Shown: positions 2,065 through 30,240 of the stretch, in pieces
How the letters are laid out: each line of letters opens with the position of its first letter
Position numbering within the stretch: the first letter of the stretch is position 1
Source: Candidatus Peribacteraceae bacterium
GTDB lineage: Bacteria > Patescibacteriota > Gracilibacteria > Peribacterales > Peribacteraceae
NCBI GenBank assembly: GCA_030750465.1
Contig: JASMHZ010000013.1
Span: 1 to 35,181 of the forward strand
DNA length: 35,181 nt
Direction of reading: 5' to 3'
Notes under the pieces: generated by a model
Databases searched by the model: none
The model's input: only the letters and a program-made list of their open reading frames with translations
Told to the model about the DNA's origin: nothing
Position numbers and translations under genes: made by a program

Positions 2065-2115
2065 TTTAATTTATTAAACACATTTTATTGTAACAGAAAT
2101 ACTCAGATATCTAAA

Positions 2116-2209
2116 GAAACAGAGGATTCAGAGGAATCAGAAGAACCAGAAGAATAATGCGATTAATCCTCTGAAACCTTTGTCTCTTGTGCTTCCTCTG
2201 TTTCTTCTC
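2116..2209. repeat. 9-mer (GARNCAGAR) inverted-repeat element, site A
   Basis: Left arm gaaacagag-gattcagag-gaatcagaa-gaaccagaa-gaa (2116-2154); opposing pyrimidine arm cctctgaaacc...cttcctctgtttcttctc (2168-2209). Confidence 0.7.
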
Positions 2210-3454: not shown

Positions 3455-3517
3455 TGTAGTGGGTAGTTTGTAGTTGTTTTGAGGTGTTTTTGTGTCTACC
3501 CACTACTCACTACTCAC
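3455..3517. repeat. Heptamer-built hairpin between convergent rplU and tgt
   Basis: TGTAGTG GGTAGTT TGTAGTT (3455-3475) opposed by TACCCAC TACTCAC TACTCAC (3497-3517). Confidence 0.65.
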
Positions 3518-4628
3518 TTAAGAGTTCAATTTCATTCCTGAGTCTTTCCATCTCTTTAAGCGTAACACTAATATTCTGCATCTGAGCATAAGTTTCACCC
3601 AGTCTTTCGTTAGCTTTAACCAAGTGATGTAAGTAGCTCTTATTTAGCTCGCGACTGAACTTAGAAGGAGAGTCAGAATCAATCGGAGTGTGATCATTTT
3701 TAAATTTTGCATTTGTGATTCTCAGATCAGTTCCGTCTGACATCAGAAGTGTCCCGTGCCTTGCTATCCTCATCGGAAGTACGCAGTCGAACATATCGAT
3801 TCCAAATGCTATGCATTTCTTCATTTGGCTGACGACGCCTACTCCCATCAAATATCTCGGCTTATCCTCAGGCAATAGGGGTGCGATGGCCTCTACAATT
3901 CCTAGCATATCCTCCTCAGATTCACCTACAGCAAGTCCTCCGATAGCGTAACCGTCAAAATCAAGAGCTATGAGCTCCTCCGCGCACTTTTTGCGAAGCT
4001 TAAGATCAAGTCCTCCTTGTACAATTCCAAATAAAGAAGAAACAGAGGAAACAGAGGAGTCAGAAGAACCAGAAGAATCGCTCCTCTGTTTCTTCTGTTT
4101 CTTTAATTCGTTGTGGATTTCTTTACATTGAGCAGCCCATTTCAATGTTCTATCAACTGCCTTTTCAATATCAGGTTTGGCAGATTTAGATGGTGGGCAC
4201 TCATCAAAACACATAATCAAGTCAGCCCCAAGTTTATGTTGAATGGTGATCGCTTCTTCCGGACCCATAAAAAGGGGAGCTCCATCTAAATGAGAATTGA
4301 AGTGGACTCCTTCATCTTTGATCTTGTTATTGCATCTGAGTGAATAAACCTGATAACCGCCGGAATCAGTCAGGATTGGCTTATTCCAGCCTACAAATGA
4401 ATGAAGTCCTCCAGCTGACTGGACAATATCTTCACCAGGTTGAATGTGCAGATGGTAGGTGTTGCAAAGTAAGATCTGGGCACCAAGATCAGTTAAGTCG
4501 GTATGAGTGATACCCTTCATAGCACCAGCTGTACCAACGGGCATGAAGAAAGGAGTCTCTATTATTCCGTGAGGCGTTTCGATTTTTCCTCTTCGGCCAA
4601 GGTCAGTGGTTTTTTCTAAAGTAAACAT
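3510..4628 (-). CDS. tgt: Queuine tRNA-ribosyltransferase
   Basis: GIIETPFFMPVGT, LTDSGGYQVYSL, FGIVQGG, GYAIGGLAVGE, RYLMGVG; contains a low-complexity insert KKQKKQRSDSSGSSDSSVSSVSS. Confidence 0.95.
   Translation of the reverse strand: MFTLEKTTDLGRRGKIETPHGIIETPFFMPVGTAGAMKGITHTDLTDLGAQILLCNTYHLHIQPGEDIVQSAGGLHSFVGWNKPILTDSGGYQVYSLRCNNKIKDEGVHFNSHLDGAPLFMGPEEAITIQHKLGADLIMCFDECPPSKSAKPDIEKAVDRTLKWAAQCKEIHNELKKQKKQRSDSSGSSDSSVSSVSSLFGIVQGGLDLKLRKKCAEELIALDFDGYAIGGLAVGESEEDMLGIVEAIAPLLPEDKPRYLMGVGVVSQMKKCIAFGIDMFDCVLPMRIARHGTLLMSDGTDLRITNAKFKNDHTPIDSDSPSKFSRELNKSYLHHLVKANERLGETYAQMQNISVTLKEMERLRNEIELLSE
4033..4104. repeat. 9-mer (GARNCAGAR) inverted-repeat element, site B, in frame inside tgt
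   Basis: Left arm aaagaagaaacagaggaaacagaggagtcagaagaaccagaagaa (4033-4077); right arm cctctgtttcttctgtttcttt (4083-4104). Confidence 0.75.
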
Positions 4629-4747: not shown

Positions 4748-5188
4748 ATGAAAAATTGTTGTATTTTCTCGTGTTGCCCAAAGACTCCAGTTGGCATCGC
4801 GGGCTTCCTGGTTCGAATTAGCTTCGGGCTATCTCTTCTTTTTGTTGGACTTACTCATTATATGACTTTTGACGGATTCAAGGGTATGGTCGCCGATGGT
4901 CTTGGGCCTTTGGAACCCCTGGGGGTTTTGTGGGCCTTGATATTGCCTGCATTGATGATAGTTGGTGGAGCTCTGCTTGTTGCTAACACGTACAAAGAGC
5001 TTGCAACATGGGCAGGTGGACTTGCGCTTGCATCGATCCCAGCAGGAATGCTTGCAAAGCCTGTTCTCTCCGGAGCATCTCTTGCAGACATGATGCCAGC
5101 CGCTCTAAACGCGATGATATGGCTAATCCTATTCTTGTTTGTCGTAAAATGCTCCTCTTGCTGTTCAGGAGGAAGCTGTGAAAAGTAG
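4748..5188 (+). CDS. DoxX-like integral membrane protein with Cys-rich termini
   Basis: About four hydrophobic segments; FLVRISFGLSLLFVGLTHY resembles DoxX; CCIFSCC at the N-term and CSSCCSGGSC at the C-term. Confidence 0.65.
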   Translation: MKNCCIFSCCPKTPVGIAGFLVRISFGLSLLFVGLTHYMTFDGFKGMVADGLGPLEPLGVLWALILPALMIVGGALLVANTYKELATWAGGLALASIPAGMLAKPVLSGASLADMMPAALNAMIWLILFLFVVKCSSCCSGGSCEK

Positions 5189-5296
5189 AAGAACCAGATG
5201 AACCAGAAGAGTCAGAGGAAACAGAGGACTATGTTTAATCAGAATCTGAAGATAATCTCTTCTGGTTCATCTGAAACCTCTGTTTCTTCTGTTTCC
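5188..5296. repeat. 9-mer (GARNCAGAR) inverted-repeat element, site C
   Basis: gaagaaccagatgaaccagaagagtcagaggaaacagagga (5188-5228) opposed by tcttctggttcatctgaaacctctgtttcttctgtttcc (about 5258-5296), between convergent genes. Confidence 0.75.
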
Positions 5297-5299
5297 TAA

Positions 5300-7850: not shown

Positions 7851-7892
7851 TATTCTATCATTTTTTGCGGCTATATTCTATTTTGCAAGGAA

Positions 7893-7986
7893 AGGAAGCA
7901 GAGGAATCAGAGGAAGCAGAAGAGTCAGAAGATAAAAAACAAGAACCCCTCTGGTTTCTCTGAATCTTCTGTTTCTTCTGCTTCTT
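7893..7986. repeat. 9-mer (GARNCAGAR) inverted-repeat element, site D
   Basis: aggaagcagaggaatcagaggaagcagaagagtcagaagat (7893-7933) opposed by cctctggtttctctgaatcttctgtttcttctgcttctt (7948-7986), between divergent genes. Confidence 0.75.
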
Positions 7987-20947: not shown

Positions 20948-20966
20948 AACAATGACAACCTCATAG

Positions 20967-21036
20967 AGAGCACGTCTTCGACGTGCGAATATATGCAAAA
21001 CATCGCGGGCCGAAGACCCGCTCTCAATGTGCGATG
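20967..21036. repeat. REP-like hairpin pair, left flank of the RAYT gene
   Basis: gcacgtcttcgacgtgc (20970-20986) preceded by gaga; gcgggccgaagacccgc (21005-21021) followed by tctc. Confidence 0.85.
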
Positions 21037-21038
21037 TA

Positions 21039-21473
21039 TTACCATGACAATGGTGTTATATCCCATTTACCTGATGCTGAGGACCATTTGTATTTATCCT
21101 GGTTTTCACATATTCCAGCTTTAACAGGATTATTGTGAATATAACGCAAAGTTTTTGCCGTATTATTTATAACTTTGTTATAGAACCTTTTTTGCCATAA
21201 AGGAGATATTCCAATTTGAAAACTTAGGCCCATTTTGTACATTCTGATAACGGATGAAACTGATCCAGGCTCAGGAACATTTAGCAAGAAATGGCAGTGA
21301 TCAGGCATAATCACGAATCCATAAAGTATGAATGGCATTCTTTCTTGCACGCGATAAATTTGTTCTATTGCTTCATGTGCATGAGAATCATTCAAGAAAA
21401 ATGGATTACGTTTGTATGTGTTTGTAGTAACAAACATTGTAAATTCGTTCTGGGTTTCATGTCGTTGTGTCAT
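21039..21473 (-). mobile_element. REP-associated tyrosine transposase (RAYT, Y1/IS200-like fold)
   Basis: GFVIMPDHCHFLLNVPEPGS (HxH), KRFYNKVINNTAKTLRYIHNNPVKAGICENQDKYKWSSA. Confidence 0.88.
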
Positions 21474-21503
21474 AAGCAGGACATGGTATCACATCTTGAC
21501 ACC

Positions 21504-21523
21504 GCACGTCGAAGACGTGCTCT
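21504..21523. repeat. REP-like hairpin, right flank of the RAYT gene
   Basis: gcacgtcgaagacgtgc followed by tctc; inverse orientation of 20970-20986. Confidence 0.85.
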
Positions 21524-21546
21524 CATTGTAGATGTCGATCAGGAAC

Positions 21547-24592: not shown

Positions 24593-24667
24593 CCACCGCG
24601 GGTCGAAGACCCGCTCTGGTCTTAACAAAAAATACCTAACTCAGAGCACGTCTTCGACGTGCGGTGG
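24593..24667. repeat. REP pair (BIME-like) unlinked from the RAYT
   Basis: gcgggtcgaagacccgc (24598-24614, followed by tct) and gcacgtcttcgacgtgc (24646-24662, preceded by agag); enclosed by ccaccgc/gcggtgg. Confidence 0.85.
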
Positions 24668-27020: not shown

Positions 27021-28769
27021 TTAATTGGATCTCGGATCGTACTTAACAGTGTACTCAATCTCATCCAATATTCTGCCTTCAGCATTTCTTGAAGTAATTC
27101 TGAATATATTTGTTCCACGATGAAGCGTTCCCATTTTTGTATCGGCTATATAATTCCAGAAGTCCTTTCCGGATTCATATAATCTAAGTTTATAGTCATT
27201 CACATATACACTTTCGGTTTTAGAAACAGTTGTTCCCTCCAAAAGGAATGAGCTGCCGGTAGCATTATGAAATGCACCAGGCGTTGGTCCTGTCACATGC
27301 AGAGTACCGGGCGCCAGAGGAATGTAGTCTATGATGGATGATTCTTCTGTTGTGTCATCGGAAATTAAAGGTTCCTCTGAATCTTCTGATTCTTCTGTTT
27401 CCTCTGTTTCTTCTAGAATCCCATCCTCGCCTTCCCCCAAAATAATGTTGAGTACTGCAGGCTCCGACTTGTATCCTCCTTTATTGATTGCAGTAATGGT
27501 AAATATATTTTCACCAAACTCAAAATTGCCAAGCTTGGTACTTGCCAAGTAGTTCCATGAGTCATCGCCTTGCTCGAAAAGCTGAAGCCTGTAGTCATTT
27601 ACTTCGATACCGACGATGTCCTTCGCAACCTTGCCGACAATTTCTATATCTTCTCTGGAAGTTAAATATGTTTCTCCCCCCTTTGCCGGCGAAGTGAGTA
27701 CTGGCGGAGCCGGCGGTTCTCTGTCCCTGCGGACTGAGCGCCTTTTTTCAGCTAACACCACTCCGTTTGAATCCAGAGCCTCAATTAGGATGCTTACCTG
27801 GTCTTCATCCGGAAGTGAGAGATCTTGTGTAAATGTTCTTTCTCCCTCTTCTAGCACCAAATTGTATCCATTAATTCTAACACTTGATACGTTATGCCCA
27901 ATAGATCCAGAAACTTTGATTGTACTTGTAGATACAGTTATGCCATCTTGGGGCTGGGATACTTCCAATGGTTCCTTAATTTCGGGTTCAGCTACTTTCT
28001 CTCTTTCGTCCGACTTTTTACTGATGATTGAATACTCGCGTTTGCTTTGCTCCAAAAATGGAGACTGAACGACCATAGGATCGAGTGGCGATCTGTATTT
28101 GTACGCGTTCCCAGATATAGCTTCTTTGTCTGGCACTACTATCTTTTGCCCTTCTCCTATTATGATGTTTTCTTTTTTACCTGTAAGCCATACAAGAAGT
28201 CCCAAATCATCCGAAGAAAATACTGCAAGTGAAATTGGGCTAATCATAGCTTCTGTTCCTGATGGTATCTTTATTTTAATATTAGATGTGGTAATTTCTC
28301 TTAAAATACTGCCTGTGAAAGATTCAAGTGTTGGAGAGGCTACCCACAAAGAACCATTAAGCAATTCTAACGAGAATTCAGATGATTTTTCCCCATATGC
28401 ACTTTTATGTATATAGAGTTCAGTCTGCTCATCCATACGTACGATAGTTCCATCGAAAAATGACAGTACAGCATAGGATCTACCACCTGTTTGCACTCGA
28501 TCGCGGGGATAAAGTTTTAATTGGTCCTCTGCTCTTTTTGGGTTTTCACCTTCGATTGATACATTAACAACTCCCTGCCCCTCTACAGATAATCTTACGG
28601 GGTTTTGTTTTACCGTATTCCCAACTCCGAAAGACGAAAGTATTTTTGTTCCAATCCAGATAAGCAAAATTCCTAATACAATTAGTAGAACAATTCTCTT
28701 CATTACAGAAGGCAGTGTAGAAGTCTGAGCCAGCGGGTAGAATCCCCGGCGGTGGCGATGTCTGACCAT
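27021..28769 (-). CDS. FecR-domain protein with tandem Ig-like/glucodextranase-like domains
   Basis: N-terminal TM; LYPRDRVQTGGRSYAVLSFFDGTIVRMDEQTELYI (FecR-like); repeated IxGxVxxxxxVxVNDYRLxLFEQGDDSWNYLASTKLGxxxxGxNxFTI. Confidence 0.75.
   Translation of the reverse strand: MVRHRHRRGFYPLAQTSTLPSVMKRIVLLIVLGILLIWIGTKILSSFGVGNTVKQNPVRLSVEGQGVVNVSIEGENPKRAEDQLKLYPRDRVQTGGRSYAVLSFFDGTIVRMDEQTELYIHKSAYGEKSSEFSLELLNGSLWVASPTLESFTGSILREITTSNIKIKIPSGTEAMISPISLAVFSSDDLGLLVWLTGKKENIIIGEGQKIVVPDKEAISGNAYKYRSPLDPMVVQSPFLEQSKREYSIISKKSDEREKVAEPEIKEPLEVSQPQDGITVSTSTIKVSGSIGHNVSSVRINGYNLVLEEGERTFTQDLSLPDEDQVSILIEALDSNGVVLAEKRRSVRRDREPPAPPVLTSPAKGGETYLTSREDIEIVGKVAKDIVGIEVNDYRLQLFEQGDDSWNYLASTKLGNFEFGENIFTITAINKGGYKSEPAVLNIILGEGEDGILEETEETEESEDSEEPLISDDTTEESSIIDYIPLAPGTLHVTGPTPGAFHNATGSSFLLEGTTVSKTESVYVNDYKLRLYESGKDFWNYIADTKMGTLHRGTNIFRITSRNAEGRILDEIEYTVKYDPRSN
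27366..27416. repeat. Single-arm 9-mer repeat inside a coding region, site E
   Basis: cctctgaat-cttctgatt-cttctgttt-cctctgttt-cttct, encoding EETEETEESEDSEEP on the minus strand. Confidence 0.7.
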
Positions 28770-29954: not shown

Positions 29955-30240
29955 TACTGTGAGGAAAGAACGAAAGACTGAAAGAAGGAAAGAATTAAAA
30001 AAAGAGAGAAAGAGAGAAAGAACGGAAGAAAGACAAAAAGAGAGAAAGAAAGGATAAAAGAACGAAAGGAAGAGGTAAAAGGACGAAAGAAGGAAAGAAT
30101 TAAAGAAAGGAAGGATAAAGGAAAAAGACTTTAAGTTAAAAAGCTTTTACGCTTTCTACTTTTAAAGCTTCCTTTTTGCTCTTTTGGCCTTTCTTCCGTT
30201 CTTTCTCTCTTTTTGTCTTTCTTCCGTTCTTGCAGTCTTT
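29955..30240. repeat. Long purine-rich/pyrimidine-rich inverted repeat
   Basis: aagaacggaagaaagacaaaaagagagaaagaa (30018-30050) is the exact reverse complement of 30199-30231; surrounding tract of gaaagaacgaaag-type units. Confidence 0.85.

Follow-up and report, generated by a model that had tools for sequence, protein, structure and literature searches.

The window, by which we mean the whole stretch of DNA analysed here (35,181 nt, contig JASMHZ010000013.1, from a Candidatus Peribacteraceae bacterium), comes from a source genome of 1.0 Mb in 64 contigs, denoted G000 below. It carries tgt, the gene for queuine tRNA-ribosyltransferase, with a hairpin built of 9-nt units inside the coding region, several intergenic copies of the same 9-mer family, and a gene for a REP-associated tyrosine transposase (RAYT) flanked by REP palindromes (Table 1). 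The match to the TIGR00430 equivalog model spans Tgt residues 2–368, which means that the full-length catalytic domain is present; the Tgt alignment has 58 invariant columns. In the same protein, residues ∼310–335 (window positions 3510–3720) read SPS..SR in the aligned Peribacteraceae and contain CxCxxC cysteines in several other bacteria. We take these cysteines to be the zinc ligands of Tgt; judged from the sequences, the zinc site may have been lost in Peribacteraceae Tgt.

Table 1. Features of the window discussed in the text (strand ‘.’, none assigned)
Feature	Position	Strand	Evidence or remark
Intergenic 9-mer copy	2114..2208	.	Common to G000 and G003
tgt, queuine tRNA-ribosyltransferase	3510..4628	-	372 aa, intact; TIGR00430 E=1.1e-128; AlphaFold; TM 0.90
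Two-armed 9-nt-period hairpin within tgt	~4032..4105	.	Direct/inverted repeats; own-genome copies; fold z -5.7
Element-encoded peptide KKQKKQRSDSSGSSDSSVSSVSS, codons 176-198	4035..4103	-	Translation; pLDDT < 50 at 187-194
Intergenic 9-mer copy between convergent doxX-like/clpP-like genes	5187..5297	.	Site empty in G003
Intergenic 9-mer copy between divergent genes	7882..7985	.	Common to G000 and G003
REP palindromes, one side of RAYT	20954..21024	.	Repeat families D11, D15, D16
RAYT, REP-flanked	21039..21473	-	NF047646 E=9.8e-29; REP alignment
REP palindrome, other side of RAYT	21500..21536	.	Inverted repeat I16 with 20954-20987
Single-arm stretch EETEETEESEDSEE, in frame in FecR-domain protein	27372..27414	-	Repeat listing, translation

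The tgt element consists of AGARGARNC units in one arm and their reverse complement in the other, the arms being unequal (∼5 versus ∼2.5 units). Its transcript has a predicted folding energy of −33.6 kcal/mol against a mean of −16.5 for dinucleotide shuffles (0 of 200 as stable), and in comparison with codon-order shuffles the G000 tgt loop has a fold z of −6.5. An earlier note, made from the sequence of the window, had described a complete hairpin lying in frame within tgt directly before the conserved FGIVQGG motif. This description is confirmed: both arms are present, the ORF is intact, and the encoded peptide ends immediately ahead of LFGIVQGG. The accompanying assignment of positions 4033–4104 to 24 codons is right as to the length of 72 nt and wrong as to frame, the start being off the codon boundary; the peptide proper has 23 residues. 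A clean insertion of 24 codons is ruled out by comparison with G003, the closest relative, in which ∼5 residues stand in place of the segment, a net difference of 18 aa.

The element is one of a dispersed family. It yields 143 BLAST matches across the G000 genome, and in the loci sampled, which make up only a part of the 1.0 Mb, we counted 44 clusters of the 9-mer hairpin family, 32 of them two-armed. About 28 of these 32 sampled copies are intergenic, and of the four situated in real genes, two are internal (in tgt and in an SLH-domain protein) and two form tails at the C-termini of ribosomal proteins L4 and L10. One more stretch of the same repeat is held by the C-terminal tail of L22 (L4, L22 and L10 are loci L201, L216 and L025 on contigs C3 and C11), while single acidic arms occur in infB and in a small number of secreted or repeat proteins. 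L5 and IF-2 likewise have acidic stretches, similar in composition. The family members are inverted arrays of roughly 70–130 nt whose internal length varies by units. When the own-genome copies were aligned at their outer ends, conservation set in sharply at either end, starting with (A)ARGAAACAGARGAANC, giving terminal inverted repeats with defined ends; the flanks had no consensus and no conservation outside the first unit. This sharp limit of the conservation identifies a discrete element rather than loose low complexity. The Rfam scan of the window returned one tRNA only and assigned the element to no known family. The 9-nt unit is a multiple of three and is stop-free in all but one of the six frames (TGA is possible there), so that read-through is easy.

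The tgt DNA of G003 is 92% identical to that of G000. At the site of the element, G003 Tgt has a loop of seven residues, KLNSESK, where the G000 loop has 25, and the G003 genome holds the 9-mer family at other sites. Along one syntenic contig two intergenic 9-mer sites are shared, one is found in G000 only (5187–5297) and one in G003 only, in addition to the difference at tgt. The presence of both shared and one-sided sites indicates that the family has been turning over since the two lineages split. The difference at tgt could be a gain in G000 or a loss in G003, the short G003 loop then perhaps being the scar of a deletion; a clear target-site duplication was not seen in the filled and empty pairs of the 9-mer family.

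The AlphaFold model of Tgt has a mean pLDDT of 89.8, is confident except in the loop and superimposes on the Zymomonas mobilis enzyme (1efz) with the TM value listed in Table 1. The insert is placed between helix 151–185 and strand 198–203, with its first residues extending the helix and its core, residues 187–194, predicted to be disordered. In a TIM barrel, loops that precede a strand are expected to lie on the side opposite the active site. The suggestion of the earlier note, that an intergenic element is tolerated in a surface loop of Tgt, is supported by the presence/absence difference from G003, by the own-genome copies and by the position of the segment in a predicted flexible loop between helix and barrel strand.

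We then compared this loop across the family. Tgt matches were found in 65 of 74 Peribacteraceae genomes (MAG assemblies, one genome per species), and 63 loops were usable: 35 are short (7–13 aa) and 28 are long (15–44 aa). Each long loop, with G063 and G066 left out, was searched against its own genome, and 21 of 26 had further copies there; six of six short-loop controls matched only themselves, shorter queries having less power. No second copy was found in the own genome for the long loops of G002, G005 and G034 (the G002 loop, a perfect palindrome, was found instead in G090), and those of G035 and G014 are tied to repeats only through related family members. Equally long segments of non-repeat origin in related Tgt proteins had been named in the earlier note as the observation to speak against insertion. 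Long segments do occur in many relatives, and since most of them are dispersed repeats of the own genome, the idea of insertion survives and is widened. Folding better than in codon-shuffled versions (p ≤ 0.01) was observed for 17 of the 28 long loops vs one of the 35 short ones. Outside this loop, a single internal insertion of ≥8 aa was seen in the 63 sequences. In other phyla 38 of 49 Tgts have one identical loop length (two long values in that set are artefacts, an earlier Trp having been taken); loops are also longer in a few other patescibacterial families. The G064 assembly (L223) has a stretch of Ns in place of the loop region, which accounts for the break in tgt and rules out a frameshifted gene; this stretch might reflect a hairpin repeat that broke the assembly.

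The sequences filling the loop are diverse. CTTCTG-type 9-mers are present in G000, G013, G017, G029 and G087, other 9-mers in G019 (KGT/LVP), G071 (KAV/LPS), G025 and G027, IPSGDEG-type repeats in G016, G020 and G068, LPKGEG-type repeats in G004 and G089, and a REP doublet of the RAYT-linked type in G028; the remaining long loops include still further repeat types.

We consider it highly probable that the tgt element is a dispersed non-coding hairpin, mainly intergenic, that settled in frame in a permissive Tgt loop filled repeatedly by unrelated families. Such hairpins would insert or be copied widely, mostly between genes; most intragenic copies would be lost, and those in frame in a permissive loop would stay. 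With its 9-nt, almost stop-free unit, a 9-mer copy would add a hydrophilic flexible peptide without breaking Tgt, leaving the enzyme whole. The loop between the long helix and the TIM-barrel strand would be a recurrent survival site across Peribacteraceae, occupied independently by many unrelated families because insertions there keep the fold. We infer that the recurrence results from filtering of insertions by tolerance, not from targeting, and that the inserted peptide is neutral or nearly so.

The independence of the insertions is seen on a Tgt tree made without the loop, where short and long states require at least 21 changes. A loop of 44 aa in G016 stands against one of 12 aa in G099 at branch lengths of 0.037 and 0.010; the sisters G071 and G029, of one genus, have different 9-mers in the loop, and the neighbours G089, G090 and G091 have three different repeat families. 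An alternative is vertical inheritance with replacement, in which an ancestral insert was overwritten through recombination by the current repeats of each genome. It would agree with the wide occurrence of long loops and with sister species often being both long with different repeats. Nevertheless we judge it unlikely: REPs, LPKGEG repeats and 9-mers are unrelated and offer no common sequence for recombination, short loops, 35 of the 63, are intermingled with long ones across the tree, and the G016 insert splits what reads as a loop of canonical length (KLAEENQ / HTPL).

ATCA stands on both sides of this G016 insert, a single case and in a family other than the 9-mer one of G000, and is suggestive of a 4-nt target duplication. 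Such flanks, together with the arrival of unrelated families in the same loop in many lineages, are what one would expect of a true insertion hotspot, with a motif or structure of the tgt loop DNA attracting several families via one machinery. If the loop were a docking site of this kind, recognised at the DNA or structure level by unrelated repeat families in Patescibacteria, one locus would log the succession of repeat families sweeping each lineage. We give this reading only a small chance, because the DNA flanking the loop varies between species with no shared motif seen, the repeat families differ in structure, and the flanks of own-genome elements lack a consensus. Moreover, Y1 transposases, found in 53 of the 74 genomes, were absent from G016, G017 and G019 (gaps in the MAGs are possible) though the loops of all three hold elements. 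A Y1/RAYT transposase was accordingly rejected as a general mover of the loop elements. The RAYT of the window, the only Y1 gene whose flanks were compared, is flanked by a palindrome other than the 9-mer element; REPs of the same type as these flanking ones fill the G028 Tgt loop, and the REP-type loops probably arrived through RAYT activity. For the 9-mer family, template switching or slippage between the inverted arms is a possible source. The segment 20954–21536 itself resembles a REPtron, here carried by a Peribacteria genome; more palindromes of the same set lie at 24594–24665.

Apart from tolerated insertion of dispersed hairpins, one may think of selection for a function, either the mRNA hairpin or the disordered peptide being kept as useful for partner binding or for control of the Tgt level. 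The loops do remain hydrophilic and in frame, and the mRNA hairpin is strong; as no peptide is conserved across species and close relatives live without the insert, we regard selection as quite improbable. A native low-complexity run of codons expanded by local slippage, with no connection to dispersed elements, could explain the repetitive, Ser/Lys-rich 9-mer arrays but is very hard to reconcile with both arms and the ends of the tgt segment matching the dispersed element, or with non-tandem families (REP doublets) filling the same loop in relatives.

Insertion of a dispersed hairpin into a tolerant loop has known parallels. Rickettsia palindromic elements (RPEs), of about 150 bp, are dispersed palindromes found between genes and in frame in genes of unrelated function (PMC10969869, a review; PMC3733652). 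The comparison with RPEs drawn in the earlier note fits as an analogy, the Peribacteria element being likewise a dispersed palindrome with intergenic as well as in-frame intragenic copies. RPEs are distributed among unrelated genes, whereas in Peribacteraceae many unrelated families occupy a single site of a single gene; the 9-mer family consists of 9-nt units in inverted arms, and the hosts are Candidatus Peribacter / Peribacteraceae (Patescibacteria), not Rickettsiales. REPs and RAYT-linked REPtrons (GTAG/CGTC palindromes) are small, mostly intergenic near gene ends and sometimes within genes (PMC3733652). The REP-flanked RAYT of the window and the G028 loop resemble them; in contrast to a REP, a single imperfect palindrome of ∼20–40 bp that is often paired, the G000 tgt element is an inverted 9-mer array, and the three genomes mentioned above have loop elements with no Y1 transposase. 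MITEs (ERIC, BOX, Correia and enterobacterial RU) are non-autonomous and dispersed, have inverted ends and can fuse to ORFs (PMC10969869, PMC2759123). The 9-mer element shares with them terminal inverted repeats and defined ends but differs in that neither a parent transposon nor a firm target duplication was found and in that its length varies by units. Coding palindromes, that is inverted repeats inside conserved genes, are described for nematomorph mitochondria (PMC6649704), a likeness limited by the mitochondrial setting.

In-frame palindromic elements are best known from Rickettsia, where it stayed unclear whether they benefit the protein at all. In the literature searched, neither recurrent repeats in Tgt nor the recurrence of unrelated families at one loop had been described, though earlier accounts may exist. 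In Tgt, a conserved enzyme, a single loop has been occupied independently many times by different repeats, and sister species provide empty and filled controls, so that tolerance can be tested against targeting and against benefit. The Tgt loop may be regarded as a natural experiment on the entry of new disordered segments into conserved proteins of small-genome bacteria.

Repeat-bearing proteins are not limited to Tgt and the ribosomal protein tails. In MiaA, which served as a second control, repeat-like peptides occur in one loop in G030 (L334) and G029 (L336), HPRPLPRSGGGG and GNQRNQRNQ, which indicates that the capture of repeats is general and that Tgt, though the strongest case observed, does not stand alone. 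In a control on the ribosomal protein operon (21 genomes), variation was mostly at C-terminal tails, in a table made noisy by antisense ORFs. Outside Peribacteraceae, Tgt loops resembling translated repeats were observed in L318 (G043), KIRNSKFEIRNS, and in L321 (G049), LSPRKRGSK. Finally, the window contains a second type of periodic hairpin at 29957–30240, where a gene for a penicillin-binding protein begins; its two arms, each 67 nt long and built of 8-nt units (AAAGAACG-like), are 81% complementary and 126 nt apart.
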